Under the pieces are notes generated by a model. The model made no database searches. It had not been told where the DNA came from and was given only the letters and a program-made list of their open reading frames with translations. This document shows, piece by piece, positions 1,047-58,061 of a stretch of DNA of 59,815 bases (position 1 is the first letter of the stretch; every line of letters starts with the position of its first letter). The position numbers were made by a program, and so were the translations under genes. Origin of the DNA: Alphaproteobacteria bacterium (lineage in GTDB: Bacteria > Pseudomonadota > Alphaproteobacteria > Elsterales > Elsteraceae); contig JAAFIC010000009.1 of the NCBI GenBank assembly GCA_013298565.1, positions 1-59,815 of the forward strand. The letters are read 5' to 3'.

Positions 1047-1096
1047 TCGTGGTTTTCCGCTTGTTTCTGAAGCGGATCGCTCGATAAGTCTAGGGG

Positions 1097-38857: not shown

Positions 38858-38858
38858 T

Positions 38859-40856
38859 TTAATCTTCTCCCTCAAGATCATCAAACCCATGCGGCACCCA
38901 GGCCGCGATTTGCTGCGGCATCACCTGTGCGCCGCCAAGGCGATAGCGCACGCCGGTCGGCCCCTGCCACGGCTCGGGGCCGTAATTGAACGCAAACGTC
39001 AGCGGGCCACGACGGCGCAGGCGCACGCTGTCGGGCACTGGGTGCAAGGCTATGCCTTGGGCCTCCGCCCAAACCGCCAGCGTTTCCCGCAGAAAATCGC
39101 CATCAGGCAGCCCGTGCCAACTATACACGCGGCCCATGCCGTGCGGCTGCTCGCGCACGGCGGGCCAACCGTCGCTGAACCGGGCGAGCACGGCGGCGCT
39201 ACCCTCGGTCGCCTCGCGCCAGCCGCGCGTTTGATAGGTTTTGCCCTGCCAAAGCACGGTTTCGGCGAAGGCAGGATCGAGCGATTCAACCCGCGTGACA
39301 CAGAAGCCTGCAAGATCGGCCAAGCGCCCTGGCGGCAGATTGGCCGGGATATGCAGGTTTTCGGTTTTGGAGCCTGCGCGCGGCCCTAACACCAGCGTCG
39401 CCCCTGCCGCAACCGCTCCGGTCAAGCGTTGCGCCAGCGTGTCCGAAATCATCGGGGAGGCAGGGGCGAGGATCAGGCGGTAGCCGTCCAGCGGCGCATC
39501 GGGGCTAACAAAATCAACATCAAGCCCCAAGCGGCGGACGGCCTGATACCAGTCGAACACCAGATGCTTGAAGGAATACTCCCGCCCCTGCGGATGGGCC
39601 GTTAGCAACCAGTCGGCTTCATAATCGAACAGCAGGGCCACCGGGGCGCGGGCGCTGTCTGGCATCGGCAGCGTGGCGGCTTCTTGGGCCACCGCTTCAG
39701 CCTCGAAGAACCCCGGTGCGGGGTGGCTGTCGGGGCGCAGCAAGCCTGCGTGCATCTGTTCTTGCGCGAAGGGGGCTTGCCGCCAGCGGAAATAGGCCAC
39801 CACTTCAGCCCCGTGCGCGAAGGCTTCCCACGTCCACAGTCGCACCATGCCGGGCAGTGGCGCGGGATTGTGGAAGGCCCAATTGACCGGGCCGGGTTGC
39901 TGCTCCATCACCCACCAGCGCCCACGCCCAACCGCGCGGTAGAGATCATGGTGGAAGGCCGCAATATCCGGGTGGCCGGTGCGTTGCCAGCGTTGGCGTT
40001 CGGCAGCGGGCAGGCGTAGCAGCGTGTCGGTAAAGCCGAGCGGGTAGGAATCCCAGGTGGCGAAATCGAGATCGTTTGCCACCTTGAAATGATCGAACTC
40101 GGTGATGAAGCCCATGTAATTATGGCTCAAATCCTGCCCCGGCGCATGGCGGCGCAGAATATCGGCTTTCAGGCGATTGAAGCTAACCACTTGGTCGGAG
40201 GCGAAGCGGTAATAGTCCAGCCACGCGCTCGGGTTGGCTTCGGTCACGGTCAGGTTCGGCAACTCAGCTTCGGCGAAATCGCCAAGCTCCATGCTCCAGA
40301 ATACCGTTCCCCAGGCTTTATTCAGCGCGTCGATACTGCCGTAACGGGCGCGCAACCAGTCTTGAAAGGCCGCGCGGGCAGCGGGGGAATAGGAGCGCAC
40401 GGTATCGTGGCAGCCATACTCATTATCGAGTTGCCACGCCATGATATGCGGGTTGGTGCCGTAGCGTTTCGCCAGCACTTCGGTAATGCGCGCCACTTCC
40501 ACCCGGTAGCCTTGGTGGCTGAAATCATAATGGCGGCGCGAGCCAAACCCGCGCGGGCGGCCCTCGCGGTCGTGAGCGATCATATCCGGCAGGCGGTCCA
40601 CCAGCCATTTCGGCGGCGTGGTGGTCGGGGTGCCGAGCACGATTTTCAGCCCAGCGGTGCCCAAGGTCTCAATCGCCCGGTCGAGCCACGCAAAGCAATA
40701 GTCGCCAGGGCGAGGCTCTAGGCGGCTCCAGGCGAATTCGCCAATGCGGACGATGCGAATGCCGACATCGACCATGCGCCGCGCGTCTTCGGCCCACTGG
40801 GGTTCTGGCCAGTGTTCGGGATAATAACAAACGCCTAGGGTTGCGGTGGTGCTCAT
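38859..40856 (-). CDS. lacZ: Beta-galactosidase, glycoside hydrolase family 42
   Basis: 665 residues, no signal peptide, so it acts in the cytoplasm on imported galactosides. The GH42 N-terminus [12 protein letters not shown] is clear. The acid/base Glu is E146 in QLDNEYGC, and the nucleophile Glu lies in [11 protein letters not shown] near residue 315. A trimerisation domain and a small C-terminal beta domain complete the normal length. Position between the alpha-galactosidase and lacK genes supports a role in lactose or other beta-galactoside use. Unrelated to the GH2 LacZ of E. coli. Confidence 0.93.
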
Positions 40857-42913
40857 GATTGGGGTTCTAGCCAGAAAAGAAGCGCCGCATCGGGCGCACG
40901 AAGATCGAACAGCAGGCCGGTCTGCGACAAGGTTTCGGCGGATACAATCAACCCGTCCAGAGCATCGGGAAGGCTGAACGGGGGCCGCGTCGTGATTCTG
41001 TAACGCTGGCCTGCGGGTAGCCCCGGTAGCCTCACTGTCAGCGGCGTTTGGCTGTAGGCACGCGGGTAGAGGGTAATCCGTGCCGTGCTGGTTTGCGGAT
41101 CGTACAGCATCCAGCCAATAGCCCGCGCTTCCGGCAACGCCAGATACCGGGTTTCAGCGCGGGATTGCCAAACGCGGTCGGCTTTGAACTGAGCGATCAG
41201 CGCCCGCAAGGTTTCGCGCTCGACAGGCTCTAGCCCGCGAATATCCCATTCGATCCCCAGATGCCCCGCCAGCGCCACGGCCCCGCGCGTGAGTAAGGGC
41301 AAGCGCCGCCCGCTGGTGTGGCATTCCGGGGGGCCGATGTGGCTGCCCATCACCTCGGGCGGGAAGAACAGGCTAAAGCCGCGTTGAATGTCGGCCCGGT
41401 CGCGCGCGTCGTTGCTGTCGGAGGTCCAAACCCGATCCGTCCGGCGCAGAATGCCCCAATCGGCCCGCGCGCCGCCGCTGGCGCAGCTTTCGATTTCAAC
41501 GCGGGGATGGGCGGCGCGCAGCCGGTCTAGCAGACTATAAAGCGCGCGGGTTTGCGCGGGCGTTACCCAGCCGTTGATAGGGCTGAAGGCGGGGGCAAGG
41601 TCGCGGTTCATATCCCATTTCAGGTAGGCAATCGGGTGATCGCGCAACAGCGCATCAAGCCGGGCGAACAGATACTCCCCCACGTCGGGCCGCGTGAGAT
41701 CGAGCACTAATTGATTGCGCGCTGTAGGCCGCTCGGTTTGGGGAACGTGCAGGCACCAGTCCGGGTGAGCGCGATACAGGTCGCTGTCGGGGTTGACCAT
41801 CTCCGGCTCAACCCACAGGCCCATATCCATCCCCGCCGCCTGGATTTCCGCCGCGAGCGGGCCGAGACCTTGGGGGTACAGCGCCGGATCGGCTTCCCAA
41901 TCCCCCAAGCCCGCAGTATCGGCGCGGCGACCCCGGAACCAGCCGTCATCGAGCACAAACCGCTCAACGCCAATCTCGGCGGCAGCGGCAATCAAAGCCG
42001 ATAAGGCGGCGCGGTCGTGATTGAAATAGAGGGCTTCCCACGTATTGAGATGCACCGGGCGCGGCGGCAGGGGGGCTGGGTGAATAACGTCGCGCACATG
42101 CCGATGGGTTTGGCGGCGCAGATCATTCAAGCCATCGGCCACGAAGATCACCGCGTCGGGGCTATCATAAACCGCGCCCGGCGCAAGGGTAAGCGCGCCG
42201 CCCGCAAACGCTTCCCCCGCTTGCAGAACGCGCTGACCATCGGGGAGCGCTTCAACCCGCAAGGCCGTATCGCCTGACCACGCAAGATGCACAGCGGTGA
42301 GTGCGCCCGCCGCGTCTGAAAAGCCGGGGGTGCCACAAATGAGCGCCGGGAACCCGTCATGCCCCGGTCGCCCCCGTCGGCCAAACCGCTCGAATGCTCC
42401 GGCAGGCAAGGCGAGGCGCGGGGTTTGGTACTCGTTGCACCAAGTCCCCGTAAACGTCAGCACCTCGCTCGCCTCATCGGGCAGCGGCAGGGTCACAGCA
42501 GCGCAGTGCAGCAGCGTTAGCGGATGGGGGCCAAGATTGGTAACGCGCACCGAAACCGTTAACCCGCCGCTTGCCGCGAGGGAATAGCGCTGCTCCCACC
42601 GCAGCCCGTCTGCCGTGAGCGTTACGCGCGCGTCGGCCTCGTTCCCCGTCAGCGCCACGCTCTGCCAGCGGATTGGGGGCAGCCCGAGGCGGCTCAGGCT
42701 GGGTTTGCCCCAAAAGCCCCACCCTTCGACCGGGCAGAGACTGAGGAAAGGCGGTGCATCCAACGCGGCATTCGGGACAGACCGGGCGTGCAGCGCCTCC
42801 AGCGTCTCGGTATCCGGCAGCGGGGGGCCGAAATGGTACCAGCGCGGCGCGCTTTCTTCCCCCCGTAGAACAAGTTGGCGCGCCCCGACCGTAAGGCAGA
42901 CCTGCGCCGTCAT
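40853..42913 (-). CDS. Alpha-galactosidase, glycoside hydrolase family 36
   Basis: 686 residues from ATG 42913, overlapping the lacG stop (ATGA); the longer frame is a shadow of lacG. The GH36 core shows NTWEALYFNH, LDDGWF, LWVEPEMV, the nucleophile Asp in YLKWDMNR and the acid/base Asp in TSDSNDARDR. No signal peptide, so cytoplasmic. It overlaps both neighbours by four bases, so it is a fixed part of the operon. Together with the GH42 enzyme it would let the cell use alpha- and beta-galactosides (melibiose or raffinose-type sugars and lactose-type sugars) through one importer. Confidence 0.93.
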   Translation of the reverse strand: MTAQVCLTVGARQLVLRGEESAPRWYHFGPPLPDTETLEALHARSVPNAALDAPPFLSLCPVEGWGFWGKPSLSRLGLPPIRWQSVALTGNEADARVTLTADGLRWEQRYSLAASGGLTVSVRVTNLGPHPLTLLHCAAVTLPLPDEASEVLTFTGTWCNEYQTPRLALPAGAFERFGRRGRPGHDGFPALICGTPGFSDAAGALTAVHLAWSGDTALRVEALPDGQRVLQAGEAFAGGALTLAPGAVYDSPDAVIFVADGLNDLRRQTHRHVRDVIHPAPLPPRPVHLNTWEALYFNHDRAALSALIAAAAEIGVERFVLDDGWFRGRRADTAGLGDWEADPALYPQGLGPLAAEIQAAGMDMGLWVEPEMVNPDSDLYRAHPDWCLHVPQTERPTARNQLVLDLTRPDVGEYLFARLDALLRDHPIAYLKWDMNRDLAPAFSPINGWVTPAQTRALYSLLDRLRAAHPRVEIESCASGGARADWGILRRTDRVWTSDSNDARDRADIQRGFSLFFPPEVMGSHIGPPECHTSGRRLPLLTRGAVALAGHLGIEWDIRGLEPVERETLRALIAQFKADRVWQSRAETRYLALPEARAIGWMLYDPQTSTARITLYPRAYSQTPLTVRLPGLPAGQRYRITTRPPFSLPDALDGLIVSAETLSQTGLLFDLRAPDAALLFWLEPQS

Positions 42914-43761
42914 TCCTTCGTCGCCCCGAGCGTTAGCCCGGCGATGAAGTGGCGCTGCATTAGGAAGAAGATCGAGACGGGCAACAGCGCGGCCACAATC
43001 GAACCCGCTGAAATCAACTGCCAGGACGACACCCACATGCCTTTCAGCGACTGCAACCCCGCCGTGACCGGGCGCGCCGCATCGGTTTGCGCCAGCACCA
43101 GCGCCCAAAAATAATCATTCCAAACGAACGTGAAGATCAGCACCGACAGAGCGGCCAAGGCCGGGCGGACCAGCGGCAGGATAATGCGGAAGAAGATGTT
43201 GATTTCCGACACACCTTCCATCCGCGCCGCCTCGATCAACGCATCGGGCAGCGCCTTGATGAAGTTCCGCATGAACAAAGTGCAGAAGCCGGATTGGAAA
43301 GCGACGTGGAAGGCAATAAGCCCCCAAATCGTATCGTACATCCCCAAGCTAATCGTAAGATCGCGCACCGGGATCATCAGAATTTGAAACGGAATGAAGT
43401 TCCCGGCAATGAACATTGCGAACAGCAGAACATTGCCGCGAAATTTATATTTTGCCAGCGCGAACCCCGCCATTGCCGCCAGCGCAATCGAACCGATCAC
43501 CGTTGGCACTGTAATCAGGATCGAGTTCAGCAAAAAAGTCGCCATCGGTGTCGTGGTGAAGACGGCGCTATAGTTTTCGATGAGCAAAAACTTCGACGGC
43601 CAACCCCACAGGTTGCCCTTATTAATGTCTTCCAGCGAACGCACAGAGGTAAGCGCAATGGCCATCAGGGGAATGAGCCATAGCCCAAGCGCGATAATCA
43701 CCGCCACTCGGTAACTCATAACAGTCCAAGCGCCTTTGGTATGGATTGGGGCGGGGAACAT
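42910..43761 (-). CDS. lacG: Galactoside ABC importer permease LacG (MalG type)
   Basis: 283 residues with six membrane helices. The EAA loop is EAARMEGVSEINIFFRIILP. The MFPAPIHTKGAWT leader is short, and an internal Met at residue 15 could also serve as start. The stop overlaps the alpha-galactosidase ATG and the start overlaps the lacF stop by one base. It forms the channel together with LacF. Confidence 0.92.
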   Translation of the reverse strand: MFPAPIHTKGAWTVMSYRVAVIIALGLWLIPLMAIALTSVRSLEDINKGNLWGWPSKFLLIENYSAVFTTTPMATFLLNSILITVPTVIGSIALAAMAGFALAKYKFRGNVLLFAMFIAGNFIPFQILMIPVRDLTISLGMYDTIWGLIAFHVAFQSGFCTLFMRNFIKALPDALIEAARMEGVSEINIFFRIILPLVRPALAALSVLIFTFVWNDYFWALVLAQTDAARPVTAGLQSLKGMWVSSWQLISAGSIVAALLPVSIFFLMQRHFIAGLTLGATKE

Positions 43762-44675
43762 TATTCGGCCTCCTTCCGCAGCATCGAGACGAGGAAGAAC
43801 GCGATATACACATCCATAATCAGAAAGAGCACCGTTGCGATAGCCGCGCCGTAGCCCATGCGGTAGGCGAAAATCGCCTGCTCATACATGAAATACCCCA
43901 GCACGGTGGAGCTATCGTAAGGACCGCCATTGGTCATAATCGCCACCAGATCGAAACTTCGCAGTGCGCCAATAACGGTTACGACCACGGCAATGAAGGT
44001 AGCAGGGCGCAGTTGCGGCAGAATAATGTTCCAGAACAACGGAAAGCCCTTGCAGCCGTCCATCCGGGCGGCTTCCACCAACTCCGGGTTCACATTATTA
44101 AGGCCGGTCAAATAGAGAATCATGCAGTAGGCAATTTGTGGCCACAGCCCGGCAACGATGATGGCATACGTCACCATATGTTCATCACCCAAGGGGGCGA
44201 TACCGGGCAGCCCAACAGCGTTCAGCACAACATTGAGCAATCCGAAGTTCGGATCGTAAAACCACGAAAAAATGACCCCGACGACGACTTGAGAAATCAC
44301 AAACGGAAAAAAGAACAGCGCTTTTACAAGCCGCATTCCGCGCAGTTGCTGATTGAGAAACAAGGCAAGCATCAGCCCGCCCACGGGGGCAAGCAAGTAG
44401 AGCACTAACCATTTTATGTTATTAGAGAGAGCAACATAGAATTTATCATCGGAAAATAATTCCCGGTAATTATCCAGCCCGATAAAAACCTTGGGGCTTA
44501 ATCCATCCCACTCATGAAAGCTAATCCAGACGCTCGACAGGATCGGCCAGACCACGAACAGGCAAAACGCTAGCAGCGCCGGGGTTAAAAACAGCAGCGG
44601 CGCAAGGGTTTTTTCGTGACGCCGCCACAGGCTGCGGCGCTGCGGCGCGCGCGGGAGGCTAAGGGAAGAGGACAT
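43761..44675 (-). CDS. lacF: Galactoside ABC importer permease LacF (MalF type)
   Basis: 304 residues. A short basic N-terminus is followed by six helices; WISFHEWDGLSPKVFIGLDN (20 residues) is the characteristic periplasmic loop after helix 1. The EAA loop reads VEAARMDGCKGFPLFWNIILP (in part). Separated from lacE by a 195-bp spacer holding two hairpins, then translationally coupled to lacG. Confidence 0.92.
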   Translation of the reverse strand: MSSSLSLPRAPQRRSLWRRHEKTLAPLLFLTPALLAFCLFVVWPILSSVWISFHEWDGLSPKVFIGLDNYRELFSDDKFYVALSNNIKWLVLYLLAPVGGLMLALFLNQQLRGMRLVKALFFFPFVISQVVVGVIFSWFYDPNFGLLNVVLNAVGLPGIAPLGDEHMVTYAIIVAGLWPQIAYCMILYLTGLNNVNPELVEAARMDGCKGFPLFWNIILPQLRPATFIAVVVTVIGALRSFDLVAIMTNGGPYDSSTVLGYFMYEQAIFAYRMGYGAAIATVLFLIMDVYIAFFLVSMLRKEAE

Positions 44676-44751
44676 TATCGTTTCCTCAAGAGCTAGAGCG
44701 TTTTTCGTTCACATTCGTTCACGACAAAGGCTCTAGTTTTCTGTTTTGGTT

Positions 44752-44796
44752 AGCAAATGCGTCGTCGCGGGTGATTCCACCCGCTCGGGATTTGCT
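44752..44796. repeat. Dispersed palindromic repeat, copy 2
   Basis: 45-bp copy of the element at 13298–13340. The ends AGCAAA / TTTGCT and the inner CGGGTG / CACCCG arms are conserved, with differences mainly in the loop and outer stem. It is in the lacE–lacF spacer. Next to it, CTAGAGC (44693–44699) and GCTCTAG (44730–44736) form another inverted repeat. Confidence 0.6.
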
Positions 44797-44821
44797 TTAG
44801 AACCGCGCGAAGGCGGCAAAG

Positions 44822-44851
44822 CCCCCGGCGCGCGCAACGGCACGCCGGGGG
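44822..44851 (-). promoter_or_regulatory. Strong hairpin just after lacE (probable attenuator/mRNA-end hairpin)
   Basis: Perfect 9-bp GC stem (CCCCCGGCG / CGCCGGGGG) about 20 bases past the lacE stop, without a long T tract. Such hairpins after binding-protein genes usually protect the upstream message or partly stop transcription. The binding protein is then made in excess over the permeases. Confidence 0.6.
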
Positions 44852-44870
44852 AAGGGAGAGGCCCTAATGT

Positions 44871-46100
44871 TTACTGTTTGAAAACCTGCTTCCGGCGCGC
44901 TTCTAAGCGCTCCATGATGGCATCGGCGCGATCCGGGACAATCATGAACTCCTGGAACGCTTTCATGCCTTCCTGGGCCAGGTTGGGGTCCGTGTCGCGG
45001 TCATAGAACTGCGCGGTGCCTGCGGCACTGGAGAGCATTTTATAGCCCGCTTGCAAGAAACGATCATCGCTGGCGGTCGCGTTCTTATTCGTCGGAATTT
45101 GCCGCAGCACGCCGTTAAGCTGAGTTTGCACATCGGCCCGCATGTAGAAGGCCAGGAATTTCTTCGCATCAGCCTTATTTTTGGCGCGAGTCGGGATATG
45201 GATTGTATCCGTTGGCGCGTCTTCATACATCGGCTGATTGGTGATTTTTGGGAACTGGAAGAAATCCATCTTATCGCGCACATCCGCCGGGAATTCCGGC
45301 GTGATGAAATTGCCGATGAGGTACATCGCGCCCTTGCCTTGATAGAACAAAGGTTGCGATTCTTGCCACGTGTAGGAGGCGTGGTTTTCAATGAAGTAGC
45401 CGGGGCGCACCAACTCGGCCCACTTATCGAACACGGCCTTCACGCCCGCATCGGTATAGGGTACCTGACCGGCCATCAGCTTCATGTGATAGTCCATGCC
45501 ATTAACGCGCAGGTTGAGGTAATCGAACCAGCCTGCGGTCGGCCACAAGGCTTTCGAGCCGATAACGATGGGCGCAACGCCGCTGGCTTTCAGCTTGGCG
45601 CAGGCATCGAGAAACTCGGCCCAGGTTTTCGGCGCTTGCATAATGCCTGCTTTTTCAAACAGGTCTTTGCGATAATACATGCCCCAATTGTAATAGGTAT
45701 AGGGAACGCCATATTGCTTGCCGTCCACCGTGACCGAATCAACGGTGGAGGGCATTGCCTCGGCCCCTTTATTGGCCGTCCAAACATCGCTTACATCTTC
45801 AAACAGCTTACGATCGACGAAGAACTTCATCCGCTCGCCCGCATACCAATAGACGACATCGGGCGACTCACCCGCGAGCCAATTGCGAATCGAGGTCTTG
45901 TAGCTTTCTTTATCGAAAACATTCAGCTTTACATCAATATCCGGGTTTTCTTTTTTGAACTGCTCGATCAGCGTTTCCATCCCCTTGCGCGGGGCCGGAT
46001 CGGATTGATCGGAGTTAATCACCAGCGTGCCAGCCAAAGCCGTGCCGCTCAGCGCCATAGCGAAAACTGTTGCCGTTGTCAGTCGCAGTAAAAGGCTCAT
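44871..46100 (-). CDS. lacE: Galactoside ABC importer substrate-binding protein LacE
   Basis: 409 residues from ATG 46100, with AGGGGGG five bases upstream; a second ATG lies one codon earlier. The signal peptide is LTTATVFAMALSGTALAG, with cleavage near residue 24. The mature protein is a MalE-type (family 1) binding protein: LVINSDQSDPAPRKGMETLI, SPDVVYWYAGERM and YNWGMYYRKD. First gene of the six-gene galactoside operon. A dyad upstream is a plausible operator. No LacI-family regulator is in the window. Confidence 0.92.
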   Translation of the reverse strand: MSLLLRLTTATVFAMALSGTALAGTLVINSDQSDPAPRKGMETLIEQFKKENPDIDVKLNVFDKESYKTSIRNWLAGESPDVVYWYAGERMKFFVDRKLFEDVSDVWTANKGAEAMPSTVDSVTVDGKQYGVPYTYYNWGMYYRKDLFEKAGIMQAPKTWAEFLDACAKLKASGVAPIVIGSKALWPTAGWFDYLNLRVNGMDYHMKLMAGQVPYTDAGVKAVFDKWAELVRPGYFIENHASYTWQESQPLFYQGKGAMYLIGNFITPEFPADVRDKMDFFQFPKITNQPMYEDAPTDTIHIPTRAKNKADAKKFLAFYMRADVQTQLNGVLRQIPTNKNATASDDRFLQAGYKMLSSAAGTAQFYDRDTDPNLAQEGMKAFQEFMIVPDRADAIMERLEARRKQVFKQ

Positions 46101-46162
46101 CATACCCCCCTCATGTTTTATGACGCCTGTTTGCATCTTTAGCGGTTGGATGGGCCGAAGCG

Positions 46163-46194: not shown

Positions 46195-46706
46195 ATAAGA
46201 TCGCGCTAAGTCCTGCTGCTTTTTGCCGCAGCTCTCTCAGCCAAAAAACGCTAGCAGGTATTGTATGATGAATAAAGCGTAATTTGAACCTCTGGAGCGA
46301 GAGGAATTTACTGCCGTTGATTGAATGATAGGGCGGCGTTATGGCGATTTTTTGGCTGTGCTATCCTGCTTAGAGCGTCTTGCGTAAAGGTTGACGCAAG
46401 ACGCTCTAGTTTCATCTTAGCCCTCGCCGGGCGGGCGCATCCGCGCCCTTGGCCGCAGCCTCAATGGCTGCTCTTATAGCTGCGTGCGATTAATCGCACG
46501 CAGCTATAATGGGCGTCACAGGGCATTCCCTCCAGCATTCTCGACACCGACCACGTCTCCACCGAAGGCCAGGCGACGGTAGCCGTGGAGCGGCTGGAAG
46601 CACACAACCTGAAGATGAGACCGAAACAGAAATAACTTGGGAAAACGAGGCATTTGAGGAGTGGGAAAATTTCCGCCTCAAATTCTGCTAAGTCATTGAA
46701 AAGTAA
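46195..46706. other. 512-bp gap with large palindromes and a possible gene fragment
   Basis: No intact gene seen. It contains a 15-bp-stem hairpin (46371–46385 / 46394–46408, loop 8), a 36-bp perfect palindrome (46474–46509), and an inverted repeat ATTTGAGG / CCTCAAAT (46652–46683) next to the tRNA fragment. Between the last two, a frame from about 46514 to 46634 reads like the tail of a lost protein (LDTDHVSTEGQATVAVERLE ... RPKQK, then stop), without a start. This is probably the old chromosomal flank of the tRNA site. Confidence 0.5.
46474..46509. repeat. 36-bp perfect palindrome
   Basis: Every base from 46474 to 46509 pairs about the centre between 46491 and 46492. Half-site: TTATAGCTGCGTGCGATT. 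Too long to be a typical terminator and with no T tract. It could be a protein-binding site, a fold-back element end or a bidirectional terminator-like structure. Confidence 0.85.
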
Positions 46707-46759
46707 TGGTGCCGACTCGCGGAATTGAACCGCGGACCTACTGATTACGAATCAGTTGG
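46707..46759 (-). tRNA. 3' half of tRNA-Thr(CGT): integration-site (att) copy
   Basis: On the minus strand the sequence reads through an anticodon stem-loop (ACTGA TTCGTAA TCAGT, anticodon CGT), variable loop AGGTC, T arm CGCGG/CCGCG with TTCAATT, acceptor strand AGTCGGC, discriminator A and CCA. Upstream of the anticodon stem there is no D arm and no GCCGACT acceptor strand, so it is not a whole gene. Orientation puts the chromosome on the left and the integrated element on the right; the intact tRNA should lie beyond the right edge. Confidence 0.85.
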
Positions 46760-46849
46760 CATAGTGCCATAAGAATGGCGGAAAATATTGACTCTGAATG
46801 GGAAAATAGTCAGTCTTGGGTAAATTTTGGGTAAAATGGATAGTCGAGA

Positions 46850-47965
46850 ATGGCGCGCCTCAAGCACCCGGACCCTGCCAAAGCCCCGCCCGCCGCTTAC
46901 GGGCGTCCGCCCCAATCGGAATGGATCGGCCCGTACCAAATCCGGGTGCGTTGGCGCAAAAAGGGCATGCCTTCGGTCTCGAAGGTGGTCGAGTCCTGGC
47001 CGCAAGCCTGGGATTGGTATGAGGCCAAGGAAGCCGAATTCACGCTACGGGGAACGATAGCGAACAAGAAGGAAGCGGAGAGAACCACCTTTGCCGAAGC
47101 GCTGGACCTCTATCTCGCGTCCGGCGAGGTCGACAGGAAGCGCTCGGGCGACCGGGAGAAATGGCGCATCGAGACCCTGAAAGCCGAGCCGTGGGCAGCG
47201 AGTTTCCTCAATACCCTGAGCGTCGTGGAACTTCAGCGCTGGGTAGATGAGCGGCATCGCGGCGGCTGGTCGCCGTCGACCATCGGCAGCTTCCTCGCCA
47301 CCATTTCAAAAACCTTCCAGCACCTCCATAAGCGCCCCGGCTTCGAGGGACTCGGCAATCCGGTCCGCGCCGTCAGTCGCCCCAAGCAGCGCCCCGGCCG
47401 CAAAGCGCATCTTACGGAAGCGCAGGAAGCGGAATTACTGGCCATCATCGACGCGCGAAAAGGGCTGCGCTCAACCTATTGGCTCGGCCCGTTGGTCCGC
47501 TTGGCGCTCGCCACCGGCATGCGGCAGGGCGAATTGCGCGAGTTGCTGTGGTCGGACATCCGCCTGTCCGAATCCTGGCTTCAGGTGCGCGAAAGCAAAG
47601 ACACGAAGGGCGGAACCCGGATTCGCGACGTGCCGCTAACGCCCGACGCGGTGGCACTGCTGAAGGCGCTGAAACGGGAGCTGCCGCGCCGCCTCGACGG
47701 TCGCTTGTTCCCGCCCATTGACGTCCAAACCGCCTCAAAAGCCTTTGCCCGCGTCGCCGCTCAGGCAGGCTTGCCGGACCTGACCTTTCATGACCTACGC
47801 CATGTGGCGGTGACCCGCTTGGCCGAGGTCGTGTCTAGTCCGTTGGAACTTGCCGAATTCAGCGGTCACCGGGATTTGCAGACGCTGAAGCGCTATCACA
47901 ATCCAAGGGCCGCCGATTTGGCACGGAAGGTAGCGCGGCGGATTGAGGAGAGTGCAGGGAAATAA
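46850..47965 (+). CDS. int: Tyrosine recombinase / integrase
   Basis: 371-residue site-specific recombinase of the phage integrase type. An N-terminal arm- and core-binding region covers roughly residues 1–190. The catalytic domain has the first Arg in ATGMRQGELRELLW, HxxR in FHDLRHVAVTR, the His in FSGHRDLQT and the nucleophile Tyr in LKRYHNP. It begins about 90 bp from the tRNA-Thr fragment, the usual place for an island integrase. Short GGGTAAA repeats (46818–46835) just before the gene may be arm sites. It probably catalyses insertion and excision of the island to the right. Confidence 0.94.
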   Translation: MARLKHPDPAKAPPAAYGRPPQSEWIGPYQIRVRWRKKGMPSVSKVVESWPQAWDWYEAKEAEFTLRGTIANKKEAERTTFAEALDLYLASGEVDRKRSGDREKWRIETLKAEPWAASFLNTLSVVELQRWVDERHRGGWSPSTIGSFLATISKTFQHLHKRPGFEGLGNPVRAVSRPKQRPGRKAHLTEAQEAELLAIIDARKGLRSTYWLGPLVRLALATGMRQGELRELLWSDIRLSESWLQVRESKDTKGGTRIRDVPLTPDAVALLKALKRELPRRLDGRLFPPIDVQTASKAFARVAAQAGLPDLTFHDLRHVAVTRLAEVVSSPLELAEFSGHRDLQTLKRYHNPRAADLARKVARRIEESAGK

Positions 47966-47992: not shown

Positions 47993-49027
47993 CTAAGCAG
48001 TTGCGAGCCAGCCCTTGTCGCGTAACGTGTCCAAGGCCAAGGCGATCTGGTCTTCCGAAAAACGCTTTTTGCGTTCATTCCAGGCATAGATTTTAGCGAC
48101 CGCTTCTTGCGTGTCGGCGGCGTGCTCGCGGCTTGCGACCCAGTGGGCGGTGGCGAGGAGTTCAAGACCGAAAGGTGTCTCAAAGCCCTCGACCAAATCC
48201 GCAACCCGTTCGAAGCGCAAAACAGTGTCGGCCTTGTCGGCAAGAAAGGCTGAGGCGTCTTCCACCGCGCCGGGGACCAACTCAAGCCGCTTTTCGGGTG
48301 CGTCGCCGCCATCAGAATAGCCCGTCAGAAGGTGCCCTTCGATGGTCCGCATGACATGCCGCAGGTTCTCGGCATAAGGGCCATACAGCGCTTTAGTGTA
48401 GTTCAGACGCAGTGGCTCCCCTGCCTCCTGCATAAAATACATTAGCTTATGAAGCTCAAGCAGCGTCACGAACGGGTCCATAAGCCCATTGAGGTAGCGG
48501 TGCGTAAGCACGACAAGGGCCGCCCTGCCGGACGTCATGGCGGGCACGTCGCGGGATTTGGTGACGGCGGGCGCGCCGGTGGGTTCATAAATCATCACCG
48601 CCACACCGCTTAGATCGCGCAGGGCTTCGACGATACGCGGGCGCACGTCCGCCCAATTCAATCCGCCTAGACCAGACCCGAGCGGTGGAATGGCAATCGA
48701 CCGAATCCCGCGTGTCCGAACCTCCTCAACGAGCGCCATCAGACCGGAGTCGATATCTTCCATCCGGCTCTTACCCCGCCAGTGGCGCTTCGTGGGGAAA
48801 TTAACGATGAATTTGGGATTGGTCAGCGTGCCCGTCTCGAAAACAAACATCTTCCCGGGGCGTAACTCTTCCCGCGCACAGGCAGTTTCATAGGCTTTGA
48901 AGTTTTCAGGAAAGTTATTTTTGAACTGAAGCGCAATACCGCGTCCCATAATGCCGACGCAATTGACCGTGTTGACGAGCGCTTCTGCATTCGCTTGCAA
49001 GATATCGCCAGATTTAAACTCGATCAT
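47993..49027 (-). CDS. darG: DarG-type macrodomain antitoxin (DNA ADP-ribosyl glycohydrolase)
   Basis: 344 residues. The N-terminal macrodomain (about 1–155) shows IEFKSGDILQANAEALVNTV, NCVGIMGRGIALQFK and the diphosphate loop IPPLGSGLGGLNW. The C-terminal helical domain (about 170–340; RYLNGLMDPFVTLLELHKLM) is the part that directly binds and blocks DarT. DarG removes ADP-ribose from thymidines in DNA. A perfect Shine–Dalgarno (GGAGGG) precedes it, 14 bases after the darT stop. It converges with the integrase gene (27-bp gap). Confidence 0.94.
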   Translation of the reverse strand: MIEFKSGDILQANAEALVNTVNCVGIMGRGIALQFKNNFPENFKAYETACAREELRPGKMFVFETGTLTNPKFIVNFPTKRHWRGKSRMEDIDSGLMALVEEVRTRGIRSIAIPPLGSGLGGLNWADVRPRIVEALRDLSGVAVMIYEPTGAPAVTKSRDVPAMTSGRAALVVLTHRYLNGLMDPFVTLLELHKLMYFMQEAGEPLRLNYTKALYGPYAENLRHVMRTIEGHLLTGYSDGGDAPEKRLELVPGAVEDASAFLADKADTVLRFERVADLVEGFETPFGLELLATAHWVASREHAADTQEAVAKIYAWNERKKRFSEDQIALALDTLRDKGWLATA

Positions 49028-49041
49028 TACGCCCTCCTGTC

Positions 49042-49689
49042 TTAATAGTACCAGTCTCTTCGGATCTCTATCCTCGGCCTATGGGCTGCTCCTGCAATCG
49101 CATCCGAGACGCTTTGTACAATGGCCGACGAATAAACGCCAATTCGCTCGACAAGATCCCACGGAAGTTTTCGCTCAATCAGAAACTCGGCCTGTTTAGC
49201 CTCCTGGACGTCCTGTTGAGAGAAGTCTCTCGCTTGGATTGCATCCCAATTAAGCGCGCTGAGGTCGCTTACCTCTGTGCGGAACTCCGCGTACCTGGCA
49301 CCAGCATTGGACAGCGATATCGCCCAGCGGTGTCCGTTCTTTGCCGCCCAGGCGACGGCCTGGTGCAAATCAACTTCCAGATGGACAATCGGCTGTTGAC
49401 CGCCGCGATAGGCTAGGCCTGCATTGTTTGCGCGATGGATGACATATAGCATTATTGACCTTGAACAAAAATAGAACGGAACGCAATCGCCGACGGTGAG
49501 GCTCATATGACCTGTGACCGGAAGCCGGAGCCGTCGTTGCTTGATCTCACTCATACCGATGGTCGTTCCACCCGTCCGCTGAACCATAACCGCATCCGCC
49601 CACAAGCAACCATCGCCGACAATCGACGCGAGGTTGTCCAGGTGGACGATGTGGTAGAGCTTGGGACTGGTCGGAACAGGCATCGGCAA
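49042..49689 (-). CDS. darT: DarT ADP-ribosyltransferase toxin (DUF4433)
   Basis: 215 residues. DarT adds ADP-ribose to thymidine in single-stranded DNA, halting replication; DarTG systems also act against phage. The NAD-binding N-terminus is YHIVHLDNL. The IKQRRLRLPV segment carries the conserved Arg, VPFYFCSRSIMLYVIH is the family core, and E168 in KQAEFLIE is the predicted catalytic Glu. All key residues appear present, so the toxin is likely active. It sits upstream of darG in the normal order. A 192-bp gap with no gene separates it from the next operon. Confidence 0.94.
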   Translation of the reverse strand: MPMPVPTSPKLYHIVHLDNLASIVGDGCLWADAVMVQRTGGTTIGMSEIKQRRLRLPVTGHMSLTVGDCVPFYFCSRSIMLYVIHRANNAGLAYRGGQQPIVHLEVDLHQAVAWAAKNGHRWAISLSNAGARYAEFRTEVSDLSALNWDAIQARDFSQQDVQEAKQAEFLIERKLPWDLVERIGVYSSAIVQSVSDAIAGAAHRPRIEIRRDWYY

Positions 49690-49881: not shown

Positions 49882-52200
49882 CTACCCCGGTTTCTTTAAA
49901 GGGTGCAAGCGGCGCGTATCGCCCCCATTATTCCAATAGGAGCCTGACTTATCTCGATTCGGTAAACCATGATTTGGGCAATGCATTGCATTGGCGAGCT
50001 GCTCTACCTGCCGAGCAAAGCGAATGCCATCATTGAGGGGGAGGTCAAAAGCACTAGCACTATAATGTGCCCCGAGGACATTCCGAATGTTGGCAATTGT
50101 TTTCAGTTCCTCCAGAATCGGCCCAAGGAGGATGATTTGAGGGGGTGACGAAGCATTAGCGCCTCGGTCGGGTATCTCAATCTTCAGGGCCGCCAGTAGT
50201 TTATCATTAACACCGGAAAGTAAATCGCCCAGAGTGTAGTTTCCGCCAGGGCGTCGAGGTAAAGCACAGCCATAGGTTAGTGTGATAAAATCTAAGAGCC
50301 ATTCAAGAATAACCCCGGCCTTAGCGCAGAGGGCCTGCACATCCGGCGATGGCATGCTTAATAGTGCCCTTAGACGTTCAATGTCGGGTATTGATTTGCC
50401 GAGCACTAAGCCATCACTAAGGGACCACTCGGTGAGTTCAACGAACTGACAGGCCTGATCCGGCTTCAGTAAACCCCACCGGTATTTTTCGCGCCATGGA
50501 CGATAGTGAGTGGTAACGATTGTGTGTTGAAACTGAGCGCTAATGTTATAAATCATGCCAATAACGCGCTCGACATGCGGCTCATCCACACTTCCCAACA
50601 CATCATCGAGAATCAGCACGGTCTCAGCAGCTTGATCGCGCCCGGCAAGCGCCAAAAATACGCACAGGCCCAGTGTGTCCAAATGCGACTGACTAAAATA
50701 GGCGGGCGGTGGTGCATTGTGGTTTGAAAAACCAGCGCTTAAATCGAGAGACGCGCGCTTCTTGGGGTCTAACTGGAGTGTGATCTTATCCAAGCCTTCA
50801 CCCGGATGGAGTTTTTCATAAAGCCGCCCAACCTGCTGCGCGATTTCAGTAATGATGCCATCGGTGAATTTCTGGCGTTCTGCCTGGCAATGATTGAGCG
50901 CTTCTTCCACTTTCGGCAGCAGTAAGGTCAATTCTTGCACACGCTTAGCGTTGGTTTCATAACGGTTCAGAGCTGACGCCAGATGATCCAGCGCTTTACT
51001 TTCATCGCGCCATTCGGCTTCAACCTCTGCCCATCGGGCAGCAAACGTCGCGTTAGCGGTCAGCCATTCCGGTAATTTTGTGGTATCCTTTGGGGGTATC
51101 GTGACGGGAAAATGGATATTTATTGGCCAAGAGTGTGTTTTGCTTGCCGCGAACGCGGTTTCGACCGCTAGATACTCTTCGACTGTCTGGCGCAGGGCTT
51201 GCCGTGTCTTCTCCAGTATTGCATGCTGTTTCAGACATTCGGCAGTGACAGTTCTTAAAATTTCCAACTGGTCAAGGCGCGTTTTAATGGCAGCGCTCAG
51301 TCCAACGATATTGTCTGGACTGGCGCAGAGCGGGCAGGAATCTGTATTTGGGTGTTTCTCAAGATAGGCATCGCCCGCCTCCAACACACTCAAATGATCT
51401 GCGGCATGCTCGCCTAAAGCGGCAAGGGCAACGCGCTGCCCTTGATCGGCAAGACCGGCAGCCGTTTGTGCCTCCTGAACCGCCTTTTGCCGGGTTTCTA
51501 GCCTGTCAGGATAGGTTTTGAGCGCTTCAAAATTTGTTCGTAATTTTCCAATAGCGGTAATGTGCGCCGTTAAGTCCGTCGTTGGTGCGCTCAATTTCCG
51601 TTTCGCCCAGGCAACGGGATTTAACTCGGCTGGTTTATCTACTCTCTCGTAAATATCATTTAGTGCACCGAGACTCTCTTGTTCCAGTTCGCGCGCCTGC
51701 TTTTTTTCAGCATCCAAAGATGTTACAAGCTGACGAAGTGATTGTTCCGAGCGCTCAAAATCTTCAATATCGATAAATCGTTTCATGGCCTCGTAGCGCT
51801 TGGCAGGGGCCTCTTCGATCAATTTCAGAATTTGCTGACGCCGCAAAAGCTGGATGTTAAGATTTGCCTGACTGGGGATAAGGGCCGCTGCCTTATTGCC
51901 CGCCATTTTACGAGAATATGTGCTCGTGCTGGTTTCTAGACAGACGGATAGCTCTGTTGAACGCTTTCCTGCGGTTGGCCAGAATTTTGCCAAACTACTG
52001 CCCATGCCGCGATCTTCCAAAGACCCTATACGCCCTTCGACCAAAAACTCAAAGGCATCGCAAATGGTCGTTTTGCCCGTGCCATTCTCGCCATAAATGA
52101 GGGTGAGTTTTTTGTTTTTTTCAAACTCAATCTTGAATGTCGCGGCGGACCCGCGAAATGCGGTCAGCGTGAGTGATTTTAGGGCTGGGGAGACGGCCAT
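49882..52200 (-). CDS. Rad50/RloC-like zinc-hook AAA ATPase with C-terminal HEPN-like motif
   Basis: 772 residues. The Walker A GENGTGKT is at 37–44. Long coiled coils (about 150–440) flank a CPLC zinc hook at 289–292. ABC-like signature region YFSQSHLDTLGL at 501–512, Walker B VLILDDVLGSVDE at 528–540 and H-loop TTHY at 563–566. The last 150 residues are a separate helical domain with IRNVLGAH, an R706-x5-H712 motif of the HEPN RNase type. The plan resembles RloC anticodon nucleases, but family identity is not proven. Third gene of a three-gene operon with the small protein and the SNF2 helicase. Probably a phage-defence effector. Confidence 0.8.
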   Translation of the reverse strand: MAVSPALKSLTLTAFRGSAATFKIEFEKNKKLTLIYGENGTGKTTICDAFEFLVEGRIGSLEDRGMGSSLAKFWPTAGKRSTELSVCLETSTSTYSRKMAGNKAAALIPSQANLNIQLLRRQQILKLIEEAPAKRYEAMKRFIDIEDFERSEQSLRQLVTSLDAEKKQARELEQESLGALNDIYERVDKPAELNPVAWAKRKLSAPTTDLTAHITAIGKLRTNFEALKTYPDRLETRQKAVQEAQTAAGLADQGQRVALAALGEHAADHLSVLEAGDAYLEKHPNTDSCPLCASPDNIVGLSAAIKTRLDQLEILRTVTAECLKQHAILEKTRQALRQTVEEYLAVETAFAASKTHSWPINIHFPVTIPPKDTTKLPEWLTANATFAARWAEVEAEWRDESKALDHLASALNRYETNAKRVQELTLLLPKVEEALNHCQAERQKFTDGIITEIAQQVGRLYEKLHPGEGLDKITLQLDPKKRASLDLSAGFSNHNAPPPAYFSQSHLDTLGLCVFLALAGRDQAAETVLILDDVLGSVDEPHVERVIGMIYNISAQFQHTIVTTHYRPWREKYRWGLLKPDQACQFVELTEWSLSDGLVLGKSIPDIERLRALLSMPSPDVQALCAKAGVILEWLLDFITLTYGCALPRRPGGNYTLGDLLSGVNDKLLAALKIEIPDRGANASSPPQIILLGPILEELKTIANIRNVLGAHYSASAFDLPLNDGIRFARQVEQLANAMHCPNHGLPNRDKSGSYWNNGGDTRRLHPLKKPG

Positions 52201-52205
52201 TAGAG

Positions 52206-52382
52206 TTACCCTTTCGTGCTCGCAAGGTCGATCTCATGTTTCCAGTCGGTCTCCCGCATGGTGCCTGCTTCGATCTTGGTGAGGAGCGCGCCGCGCTTTT
52301 CTGGGCGGATCAAACCTGATCGGATCAACCGATCTACCACCAACACAGCCAGTTGCGCTGACGGCGTAACCTTCTCGCTCAT
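52206..52382 (-). CDS. Small protein (58 aa) between helicase and ATPase genes
   Basis: 58 residues from ATG 52382, which overlaps the helicase stop (ATGA); the ATPase gene starts 5 bases after its stop. The tight coupling argues that it is real. Sequence is helical and charged (QLAVLVVDRLIRSGLIRPEK, then EAGTMRETDWKHEIDLAS), with no membrane segment or known motif. By position it may be a subunit linking helicase and ATPase, or an inhibitor of the HEPN effector. Not recognised. Confidence 0.75.
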   Translation of the reverse strand: MSEKVTPSAQLAVLVVDRLIRSGLIRPEKRGALLTKIEAGTMRETDWKHEIDLASTKG

Positions 52383-55252
52383 TGCACCCCCCATCGAATC
52401 GTGAATAGCGGCTTGGTATCAATCTTTTGTTCAAGATTTCTCTCGATTTGCGCGATAAGCTCTACCCGCTGTTCATCAACTTTATCTTGTGCGGTGAACA
52501 GTGAGCGGCGTTTTGTCGAGCGCTCTGTTTCAAGTGCTTTAACGGTTTTCTGCCCAGCTAATTTCTCTTCAAGTGTTAATGCTACGGAGGACGCCCTCTG
52601 CGCGTCTTTAATCTTGCGATCCAGTTCTTTCAATTCGCGCTCTAGCCCGACTTTTAAATCCTCGGCCCACGTGTAAAGTTTATCGACCTCAGCCCCGAAA
52701 AACTGCGCATTACGCCCGGAGATTTCCGCACAAACCCTACCTTGCTGGACAGACAGGGTTTCCAGAAGAACGGGCATGACCGTTTCCGGTACTATTGCAT
52801 TGCCAACCACGCTTCCGCCGATAGTCATAAGACGGGAAGCTGTTTCTTCAGCGAGTACAGCACCCTCATCGGTTATCCCAGTCAATAAAAGATGGTCTTC
52901 ATACTGGCCAAGAGAGTTGACCGATAATAGCGTGGCTATCAGCCAACCTGTTTTTCCAACGAGGGGCTCAATCTGCGAAATAAGGCCTTCATACTGCGCA
53001 TAATTAAATATGATCTCAGCCGCGAGTAATGTCCGTGACTTTGCGCGAGATACGATTGCGTCACCAAGAGGATGATTTAAACGGAACAGATGGGCGTCAC
53101 CCGTCCGCCGGGGCAACTCGTATAGCCCGGTTGGAATGTCGGTCCTGCTTATCCATGTCGGTATTCTGTTAAGCCGGAAAGAAGCGGTATCGATGAACTC
53201 AGCGTCTCCAGCCAGCTCGTATTTCGCGAGTTTCATCAACTTATGCTCAAATTGATTTAGGTAAAGATTAGTATCTTCACTACGAACTTTAAGTTTTTCA
53301 CGCACCTCATCATCAAAATTTTCTAATAATTTCCGGCGCGCATTAGTCATTGCCTCATTAATTTCAGGGCTTAAATCTTTTTGAAGCTGATCGAAAGCCG
53401 ATTTAATTTGATCTTTCTGGCGGCATTGCTGATAAATTCCCGCGATCCGCTTCTCGAAATCTACACCTGATTCAATCGACCCCAACACCTCATCACTCGC
53501 ACCAAAGACGCCTTCAAAGAGTTGAAATTTTTCAGAGAGCAACTGGTAAACGCGCTGGTCGGCCTCATTCTTGCGATTCAGGAAATTTATAACCACGACG
53601 TCATGCTTCTGGCCATATCGATGGCAGCGTCCAATCCGTTGTTCGATGCGTTGCGGATTCCAAGGAAGGTCGTAGTTCACGACCATAGAACAGAATTGAA
53701 GGTTAATGCCTTCTGCACCCGCTTCCGTGGCAATCATGATTCTGCCGCGTTCGCGAAAGTAATCGACAAGGGCGGAGCGCATATCAGCCGTTTTTGATCC
53801 GGTGACTTTATCCGATTCTTTGTGGCGGGATAGCCAATCCTTATAAATTTCCTTGGACCCGTCATCAGTGTTTGTGCCATTGAAAAGCACAATTCGATCT
53901 GAAAATGGGCTATTCGCCAAGAGTTTCAGTATATAGGTCTGAGTACGACGAGATTCGGTGAAGATAATTGCTTTTTCGTCTGCACCAAACTCACGTGCCT
54001 TAGCGAATCCAACCTCTAAGGCTTTCAGAAGAGCAAGCCCCTTAGAATTTTGTTCAATGGATGTTGCTAATGCGGCGTATTCACGAAGCTCGGCAATTTC
54101 AAATTCAAGCGCTCGCTGGTCTGATTCGGTGAGTGCATCTGCCTCATCATCAACCCACTCGTCCATCGTTTCATCTAGAGCTTCGTAATCGTCGCTTAAA
54201 TCCTCGGCAAGTGATGTCAGCCTGCTCCGGCCGAGGCGCTTCTCAAGTCTGTTAGAGATCGATGTTAGGGCTCCTGCGATGGCAAAACTCGAAGACGCTA
54301 ACAGTTTTCGCAGCACGAGCGTCATTAATGATCGCTGACTTGCCGGAAGCGCCTGAAGATTGTCTCGTTGTAAATATTCAGTGACTAAATTATAGAGGCG
54401 ATCTTCAGTGGCATCAGGATTAAATTCTTCAAGAATAGCGTGACGATTTGTGTAGGGAACATATGCCGTTACTTGCCTGCGTAGAGTGCGATGACAGATC
54501 GGTTTTAGCCGCTCTCGTAAAATCTCAAAGGTCCGTTCTTGGGAGAGGTTGGCAAATTGCTCACGAAAGCTCTTCAAATCTCCGAATGAATGCTCATCAA
54601 TAAAGGTAACTAAGCCATATAATTCTAACAGAGAGTTTTGCAAAGGTGTTGCCGTCAGAAGTAGCTTTTTACTTTCTGATAAGGCATCCTTAAGTGTGTT
54701 TGAGATTATATTTGAAGATTTATAAACATTTCTAAGCCTATGGGCTTCATCAATAACAACTAAATCCCAATTATTTGCTCGAATGTCGATGGCTTTGTTT
54801 CTTGCAAACTGATAAGAGCAAATTATAACGTTACTACTTGAGTCAAATGGTCGCAAATTACCTTCCTTAATTTCAAGATTATATGATTTTGACTCTATAA
54901 TTGTGCAGGGAATAAAAAATTTTTCGTTCAGTTCTTGATACCATTGCTTGCGGAGATTCGACGGGGCAATGATAAGAATGCGACGTTTGCCTTCGGCCCA
55001 ACGCTGCGAAATCACTAGTCCAGCTTCAATGGTTTTACCAAGGCCGACCTCATCCGCTAAAAGCGCACCTTTAGAAAGAGGGGAAGCAAATGCAAAAAGC
55101 GCTGCATCGACCTGGTGTGGGTTCATATCCACCTGAGCACCAGCAACGGCAACAGCGAGTTTCTCATTGCTGCTGGACGGTTGGCGCCTAACTAACTCGT
55201 AGGCAAGAAGCTTGGCATGAAATTCTGTTATAGAAATAGTGTTATTCTGCAT
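52379..55252 (-). CDS. SNF2-family DEAD/DEAH helicase/translocase (defence-type)
   Basis: 957 residues. RecA-like domain 1: DEVGLGKTIEAG (67–78), DEAH at 168–171, LLLTATPLQNS at 198–208. RecA-like domain 2: GAEGINLQFCSMVVNYDLPW and RIEQRIGRCHRYGQ. A long C-terminal region (about 560–957) is mixed helical, ending in coiled coil. The form resembles RapA and the DISARM DrmD helicase but no methylase or DUF1998/PLD partners are present. First gene of the operon; its upstream region is very AT-rich. Base composition is visibly lower in GC than the rest of the window, consistent with recent transfer. The proposed role is DNA or RNA sensing and translocation in a defence system. Confidence 0.85.
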   Translation of the reverse strand: MQNNTISITEFHAKLLAYELVRRQPSSSNEKLAVAVAGAQVDMNPHQVDAALFAFASPLSKGALLADEVGLGKTIEAGLVISQRWAEGKRRILIIAPSNLRKQWYQELNEKFFIPCTIIESKSYNLEIKEGNLRPFDSSSNVIICSYQFARNKAIDIRANNWDLVVIDEAHRLRNVYKSSNIISNTLKDALSESKKLLLTATPLQNSLLELYGLVTFIDEHSFGDLKSFREQFANLSQERTFEILRERLKPICHRTLRRQVTAYVPYTNRHAILEEFNPDATEDRLYNLVTEYLQRDNLQALPASQRSLMTLVLRKLLASSSFAIAGALTSISNRLEKRLGRSRLTSLAEDLSDDYEALDETMDEWVDDEADALTESDQRALEFEIAELREYAALATSIEQNSKGLALLKALEVGFAKAREFGADEKAIIFTESRRTQTYILKLLANSPFSDRIVLFNGTNTDDGSKEIYKDWLSRHKESDKVTGSKTADMRSALVDYFRERGRIMIATEAGAEGINLQFCSMVVNYDLPWNPQRIEQRIGRCHRYGQKHDVVVINFLNRKNEADQRVYQLLSEKFQLFEGVFGASDEVLGSIESGVDFEKRIAGIYQQCRQKDQIKSAFDQLQKDLSPEINEAMTNARRKLLENFDDEVREKLKVRSEDTNLYLNQFEHKLMKLAKYELAGDAEFIDTASFRLNRIPTWISRTDIPTGLYELPRRTGDAHLFRLNHPLGDAIVSRAKSRTLLAAEIIFNYAQYEGLISQIEPLVGKTGWLIATLLSVNSLGQYEDHLLLTGITDEGAVLAEETASRLMTIGGSVVGNAIVPETVMPVLLETLSVQQGRVCAEISGRNAQFFGAEVDKLYTWAEDLKVGLERELKELDRKIKDAQRASSVALTLEEKLAGQKTVKALETERSTKRRSLFTAQDKVDEQRVELIAQIERNLEQKIDTKPLFTIRWGVQ

Positions 55253-55723
55253 ACGCGCCTCTTCTTGTTTATAAACATAAGTAAGATCATATTTTTTAAA
55301 TTTTTCTAAATTTGCCTCATCTATGTTTAAAAAACACTCTCACTGAAATTTTTTTGAAAATATCTATTGAATTATTTATAGTATTAAAAAACATTTAAGG
55401 CCTCCAAGCATGTTTTTTTTCAACAAAAAGACTATGCATTTTGAGTCTAGATGCTTTTAATAAAAAAATCTAGCATGAATGCAATCTTGGATTATATTTA
55501 ATGCGAATAAAATTCCATTAACGCGGTGAGATTGCAAATTTGTGAGCTGTCAGGGCGCAGTCAGCATTCCCTTGAAAGCTTAAAGGACAATTTTATGGTG
55601 TGTTATTAATAACCAGAGTAGTTTTCTGCGACAGTTACAGCATAAAAATTTCTGAGCATAAGTGTATTTAGACTTATGACATTGCGATGCGAAGAATTTG
55701 AGCGAAGCCCATCACAATTGACT
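55253..55723. other. AT-rich divergent spacer, no gene recognised
   Basis: Strongly AT-rich, poly-A/T tracts around 55290–55480, and no ORF with family resemblance. It should contain the promoter of the SNF2 operon (leftward), but no single promoter can be named. A minus-strand frame at 55606–55914 overlaps the folded region to the right and does not look like a protein. Confidence 0.5.
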
Positions 55724-55866
55724 GGCCGGGGGCTATATACTCCTCCTTCAAAGTCCGGCCTCCGGCTGTGAACCCTTTTAGCGACGGGGCGTGAATGTCT
55801 TGCCACAAGCCCGGAGGTAGTTCGGCGGCGATAGCCGCGCGACTGTGCCTGAGGAGAACAACCTCC
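55724..55866. ncRNA. Structured GC-rich region A (possible RNA or IS200/605-type end remnant)
   Basis: An abrupt GC-rich block in AT-rich surroundings. Pairings seen: GGCCGG (55724–55729) with CCGGCC (55755–55760); GGAGGT (55813–55818) with ACCTCC (55861–55866), enclosing GCGGC-GATA-GCCGC (55825–55838). No protein family seen in any frame. Such blocks occur as omega-RNA-like ends of IS200/IS605 TnpB or IscB elements, but no tnpB or iscB gene is present. Strand not certain. Confidence 0.35.
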
Positions 55867-55993
55867 CCAAACCATTAAGGGCAGTTTCGTTGAACGAGAA
55901 TCACTCTGTTGCACCGCTCTTGCAGCACAGGCGGCAATCCCCTACCTTAAATAAACCGTTTAGCAGCGGCGAAAATCGGAGGGTTCCCCACTC

Positions 55994-56143
55994 TGTCGGG
56001 TGGCCCACCTCATATAAGACCTAACCTTTTCCGAAGGTGCGGGTGGCTCGCGTCCAAAACGAGTTGCACGTTCAGGGAAAGGGTGGGGCGTGTTTGACCC
56101 TTCGTTTTCCACGCTGCTAACCACCCGACACCAGGGGCGAGCC
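55994..56143 (+). ncRNA. Structured region B with possible pseudoknot, upstream of the JAB gene (HEARO/omega-RNA-like?)
   Basis: TGTCGGGTGG (55994–56003) is a perfect complement of CCACCCGACA (56121–56130). GGCTCGC (56045–56051) is a perfect complement of GCGAGCC (56137–56143). The two long-range helices interlock (pseudoknot) or compete. Inside are local stems ACCTT/AAGGT (56024–56038 region) and GGGAAAGGGT with ACCCTT..TTTTCC (about 56075–56110). HEARO RNAs lie immediately upstream of IscB genes in the same way, but the downstream gene here is not IscB. Identity is a hypothesis. Confidence 0.4.
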
Positions 56144-56180
56144 TTGATGGCTCCTGCCTTCCATGGGGAGGTTCCTGCGC

Positions 56181-57892: not shown

Positions 57893-58061
57893 CGATGGGA
57901 AAATAGCTATCTTCACGGGTGTAGGGGATAACAAATTTGTATTTTTCTAGGCGCTCGGTCTTGGGAAAATTTTCGGCACGTATCAAGAGCATCGGGTGCG
58001 AACCCGTGTAGAATTAAGCAGATTGCACCAAAACCAGATGGCAAAACCGAAAGGTTATAGG

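Follow-up and report, generated by a model that had tools for sequence, protein, structure and literature searches.

A tRNA-Thr(CGT) 3' fragment beside an integrase gene as the probable attachment site of a tRNA-borne island in Elstera

The question raised by this locus is whether the 3' part of a tRNA-Thr(CGT) gene, found next to an integrase gene, marks one end of an integrated island, and where the other end lies. The window, the whole stretch of 59,815 nucleotides analyzed here, is the complete contig C116 of a 126-contig, 3.02-Mb genome (G000; assembly 97% complete), and was compared with the genomes of an Elstera congener (G001) and of Elstera litoralis Dia-1 (G002). The fragment is probably an attR site created in an Elstera species by integration of a mobile element at tRNA-Thr(CGT), which would make the locus a standard tRNA island of the anticodon-loop kind. 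Both the island type and the integration route are already well known, and an ordinary tRNA-borne island leaves the general understanding of such islands unchanged. In a little-studied genus, the locus places one boundary of a defence-gene island with single-base precision, and a second example of the same integrase type at another tRNA makes a change of target easily testable.

The tRNA-Thr fragment and its intact counterpart

The minus strand of the window at 46705–46758 carried a copy of the 3' part of tRNA-Thr(CGT), which was a 54-bp exact repeat of positions 3949–4002 of C7, a 6-kb contig of the same genome. In an alignment with the intact tRNA-Thr(CGT) gene on C7 (3951–4025, minus strand), positions 46707–46758 were identical to positions 24–75 of the tRNA, and two further bases were common to both copies. 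An earlier sequence-only reading had described a 53-bp fragment starting at 46707; the fragment itself was found, but its size and start needed correction. As the reading had described, the fragment retained the anticodon arm, the T arm, and the CCA end, and the 5' half was absent. The variable loop and the 3' acceptor strand were also present, and the absent half comprised the 5' acceptor strand and the D arm. The anticodon was CGT, as in the reading and in the intact gene. The 5-bp arms of the anticodon stem were located at 46740–46744 and 46752–46756, on either side of a loop read from the sequence as TTCGTAA (46745–46751, minus strand), the presumed 7-bp crossover region. ARAGORN predicted no tRNA gene in the window, and the window gave no match to Rfam at the gathering score; therefore, the fragment is not an intact gene.

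A 31-bp part of the fragment occurred once in the window and in none of 100 shuffled sequences, even when three mismatches were allowed. A genome-wide search with a 52-mer of the fragment, a check that the sequence-only reading had proposed, yielded two places in the 3.02-Mb genome with up to three mismatches: 46707–46758 in the window and 3951–4002 on C7, the latter within the sole intact tRNA-Thr(CGT) gene of the genome. A chance origin of the match was excluded. The tRNA gene and the displaced fragment are thus both present in one genome, on two contigs.

The integrase, its candidate arm sites, and a second locus at tRNA-Ser

The gene at 46850–47965 (plus strand) encoded a tyrosine recombinase of 371 amino acids that matched Pfam Phage_integrase (E = 2.4e-22) and the PHROG integrase family (E = 2.1e-53, residues 60–362). 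Its ATG was 92 bp from the edge of the fragment, close to the 90 bp given in the sequence-only reading. The reading frame was intact and included R225, H314xxR317, H340, and Y349, a full set of the catalytic residues of tyrosine integrases; the enzyme is presumably active. Between the fragment and the integrase gene there were two direct TTGGGTAAA repeats (46816–46836, plus strand; TTGGGTAAATTTTGGGTAAAA), which are candidate arm-type integrase binding sites. The same pair preceded the integrase of E. litoralis at nearly equal distance, and no such pair was detected ahead of the integrase at 19 other integrase loci. With one mismatch allowed, one of 385 genomes of the class, the window's own, contained the 21-bp repeat pair; E. 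litoralis is absent from this listing. A search of IMG/VR gave a single exact match.

This match was on the phage-like contig 3300001598_000129 (4970–5300), where the TTGGGTAAATCTTGGGTAAAA repeat separates a distant integrase (22% identity to that of the window) from a tRNA-like 3' end that was read by eye and at which ARAGORN predicted no gene. The occurrence suggests that these arm sites may be convergent or widely shared, and it supports, short of proof, a role of the 21-bp repeat pair as a binding site. By protein search, no relatives of the integrase were detected in IMG/VR, and the matches in plasmids and phages were all below 60% identity. Searching genome contigs with the integrase recovered one locus, that of E. 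litoralis.

On the E. litoralis Dia-1 contig NZ_LAJY01000321.1 (C260), the N-terminal part of a 51%-identical integrase followed a 3' fragment of tRNA-Ser(GCT). As in the window, the tRNA fragment had the same orientation and distance relative to the integrase, with the same pair of TTGGGTAAA repeats between them; unlike in the window, the target was tRNA-Ser(GCT) and the contig stopped within the integrase gene. The 67-bp pattern of the tRNA-Ser fragment was exact on C260 and recurred with one mismatch on another E. litoralis contig (C47), where it continued as tRNA-Ser; the congener and the window's genome each had one copy. The DNA beyond the tRNA-Ser fragment in E. litoralis did not match the tRNA-Ser flank of either of these genomes. 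The single mismatch was at the 5' edge of the anticodon stem, where identity stopped, and in the tRNA-Thr case identity stopped within two bases of the same edge. The simplest reading of these end points is that the crossover took place in the anticodon loop, and fragment sequence 5' of that crossover would then be derived from the element. A review of archaeal recombinases (PMC8371274) describes the anticodon stem with its 7-bp loop as resembling the canonical core site. Such a crossover site is among the common ones: in the table of the Islander report (PMC4383910), the site was anticodon-centred in 2083 of 3919 islands, and 3760 of the 3919 had a 3' fragment.

To compare the layout more widely, 20 class-level integrase loci, including that of E. 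litoralis, were scanned for tRNAs. Thirteen had an intact tRNA with its 3' end facing the integrase start (the strands of tRNA and integrase were checked in eight loci, and two of the 13, with the same scores, come from one genome, G380). ARAGORN predicted no tRNA at the remaining seven, among them E. litoralis. The class-level integrases shared approximately 30–37% identity with that of the window, compared with 51% for E. litoralis, and most adjoined a tRNA gene. In contrast to the 13 loci, the integrase of the two Elstera loci did not adjoin the intact tRNA; it lay next to a displaced fragment, on the 5' side at which that fragment is truncated. The Elstera integrases would therefore be located at the opposite island end from most of their relatives, a modest oddity that we regard as a minor variant. 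We tentatively suggest that the two loci found so far represent a small Elstera integrase subclade, with the integrase at the displaced-fragment end and paired TTGGGTAAA arm sites, that could have been re-aimed between tRNA-Thr(CGT) and tRNA-Ser(GCT) by exchange of the tRNA sequence in attP; its core site would be inverted relative to the integrase gene in comparison with the wider family.

The probable far end of the island on contig C7

The region to the right of the tRNA-Thr gene on C7, on its 5' side, was ordinary chromosome with 61–68% G+C. On the 3' side there were first genes for a Phd-like and a weakly PemK-like protein (59.5% G+C) and then 3 kb of 44–49% G+C (positions 1–3000, left of the tRNA), so that the DNA next to the 3' end of the tRNA has the look of a mobile element. 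In the window, the truncated side of the fragment is turned towards the integrase, and on C7 the 3' end of the tRNA faces the element-like side, both as required for a position of C7 to the right of the window. The sequence-only reading had the island extending rightwards past the window edge to an intact tRNA, and it gained support here, since the second copy was single and intact and faced mobile-element-like DNA with its 3' end, in keeping with the predicted orientation.

From these findings, the following course of events may be proposed. The attP site of the element would have carried the part of the tRNA that runs from the anticodon stem through to the CCA end, and the integrase encoded at 46850–47965 would have recombined it with the chromosomal tRNA gene by a crossover in the 7-bp anticodon loop. 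With the 5' half completed by the copy that the element brought, an intact tRNA-Thr(CGT) gene would survive at the other end (attL, on C7), while the original 3' part would have been displaced to the far end, now 46705–46758. The element would read rightwards from 46759 with DarTG and other defence-like genes, over at least 13.1 kb in the window and 3.9 kb on C7. We infer that C116 and C7 bound one continuous element; if both belong together, their combined length is at least 17.0 kb (13,057 bp on C116 and 3,948 bp on C7), compared with the range of 2–200 kb used by Islander. The Islander scheme also places a tyrosine integrase gene inside the island, and such a gene is present here at 46850–47965. 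The tRNA islands described in the Islander report (PMC4383910) share with this locus a tyrosine integrase, an intact tRNA, a displaced 3' fragment, and presumably also an island between them; the present case differs in that the ends are on two contigs, so that continuity and length are deduced rather than measured.

The left end of C7 had a counterpart elsewhere in the genome. Positions 1–656 were 96% identical to a stretch of contig C105 that lies within a second element. This element (C105, 1–5531) is located at tRNA-Leu(CAA) and encodes an integrase with an Arm-DNA-bind_3 domain, an AlpA-like protein, and a 292-aa protein that had no Pfam match. The 292-aa protein showed 33% identity (E = 3e-47) with a 299-aa protein of C7, the AlpA-like proteins of the two contigs were weakly similar (E = 4e-6), and the gene order was the same on both. 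The main protein of the C7 element had no match in plasmids, nor did its C105 homologue in phages. On C7 the C105-like gene row adjoins tRNA-Thr and has no integrase; such a row would fit an element with its integrase at the opposite end, in the window, although this is an argument from layout and not a link. The insertion sequence at the end of the window had copies on contigs C15, C45, and C120, and the start of C7 is duplicated on C105. Both contig ends are therefore within repeats, and the gap between C116 and C7 is not uniquely closable. Contig C15 (1–4706) carried an HATPase_c gene and had 46–52% G+C over its first 4 kb, and each of its ends consisted partly of the insertion sequence that terminates the window; it is a candidate for the middle piece of the island.

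The Phd/PemK-like pair bears on whether C7 and the window hold the same element. A decayed homologue of the pair was found beside tRNA-Thr in the congener (G001:C23, 11843–12250) at 78–81% identity, compared with 74–81% for other DNA shared by the two genomes. The pair may thus be older than the island, in which case the C7 tRNA would not directly bound the window island; a later island should then lie between the pair and the tRNA, and none does. Short of proof, we assign the pair to the right end of the element, with a remnant in the congener. That G001 has a related pair in this position is nevertheless one of two observations that would suit an array of islands, tandem or nested, at a single tRNA, in which the C7 element would be a different and perhaps older one and the fragment the outer end of the array; the other is that the left side of C7 resembles the tRNA-Leu element of C105 and nothing in the window. 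Since the islands of an array would have to be separated by a further tRNA fragment, whereas only two copies were present in the 97%-complete assembly, we regard this arrangement as unlikely.

For the empty site, we placed the left-flank gene, the hemY-like right-flank gene, the whole of C7, 19.9 kb of the window, and the tRNA region of G001 in the congeners, and none was found. The flanks of tRNA-Thr were on unrelated contigs in the congeners, the order of tRNA-Thr, the hemY-like gene, and the cob genes differed between G000 and G001, with synteny lost to the left and to the right of the tRNA, and the E. litoralis assembly had no tRNA-Thr match. Because of these differences in gene order, no congener could serve as an island-free relative. 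The altered order, together with the insertion sequence at the contig end, would accord with a rearrangement that later parted the fragment and integrase from the tRNA, leaving the C7 tRNA as a now empty or independently occupied site. However, the repeat is still identical at 54 of 54 positions and the integrase frame is intact, which suggests a recent or maintained event and makes such a relic improbable.

The left flank and the cargo of the island

The G+C content was 60.1% to the left of the fragment and 51.6% to the right. The left flank held an operon of sugar ABC-transporter-like genes (37797–46136, minus strand), named from their translations and not by a family scan, of which 37797–46036 was colinear with G001:C17 at 75–81% identity; farther left, 27.5–37.3 kb of the window matched G001:C33 in order. 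An intergenic repeat at 46371–46509 had matches in E. litoralis and partly in G001. Judging from these matches, the DNA left of the fragment is native Elstera chromosome, in agreement with the proposal that the fragment is the left end of the island. That the fragment is instead the attP of an element that entered the locus by another way, and no scar of integration into tRNA-Thr, is barely credible: a fragment and integrase on the right side of an attP would presumably look alike, but the left side here is a native operon and an intergenic repeat common to congeners and not the other end of an element.

Two palindromes were located inside this intergenic repeat, which other Elstera genomes also contain: an imperfect one of 38 bp (46371–46408) and a perfect one of 36 bp (46474–46509). 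Beside the fragment, a short open frame at 46531–46635 began with SSILDTDHVS; it resembles the beginning of a VapC-type toxin fused to an end of different origin, and is probably a pseudogene remnant.

To the right of the integrase, the minus strand encoded the antitoxin DarG, a macrodomain ADP-ribosyl glycohydrolase (47993–49027; NCBIfam NF048014, 459 bits with a cut-off of 250; PADLOC, E = 2.4e-136), and the toxin DarT, a DNA thymidine ADP-ribosyltransferase (49042–49689; NCBIfam NF048013, 240 bits with a cut-off of 150; Pfam DarT, E = 2.6e-62). The two genes were adjacent and both products scored above the curated cut-offs, which identifies a DarTG system. They were followed on the same strand by genes for a 772-aa SMC/RecF-like AAA ATPase (49882–52200; above the cut-off of Pfam AAA_23, and only weakly similar to defence families such as LmuB of PADLOC) and for a 957-aa SNF2-type helicase (52379–55252; Pfam SNF2-rel_dom) that was DrmD-like. 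A DISARM assignment was rejected, as the match to DISARM_DrmD_b of NCBIfam reached 687 bits, below the cut-off of 950, and DrmA, DrmB, or DrmC was the best match of none of the eight window proteins scanned, on a contig that ends at 59815.

The plus strand encoded a 242-aa protein weakly similar to the prokaryotic JAB domain (56163–56891; Pfam Prok-JAB, E = 0.026, below the cut-off) and, overlapping its gene by 4 bp, a 334-aa protein (56888–57892) to which no family was assigned, with no match in Pfam, PADLOC, or NCBIfam. A DEDDh exonuclease-like gene on the same strand (57996–58910; PHROG 192, E = 6.8e-5; PADLOC DEDDh, E = 4.6e-7) ran at its 3' end into the insertion sequence (58857–59815, plus strand; DDE_Tnp_1 and DUF772), which encodes a DDE transposase, is cut by the contig end, and is a 97% repeat of the ends of C15 and C120. 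A search of plasmids returned no matches for the 334-aa protein, two records for the JAB-like protein, 19 for the ATPase, and 988 for the helicase. In the region 49882–57892, the DrmD-like helicase is thus next to the SMC-like ATPase, with the JAB-like and 334-aa proteins on the opposite strand; no PADLOC system clearly fits these proteins, and the region may be an undescribed defence locus.
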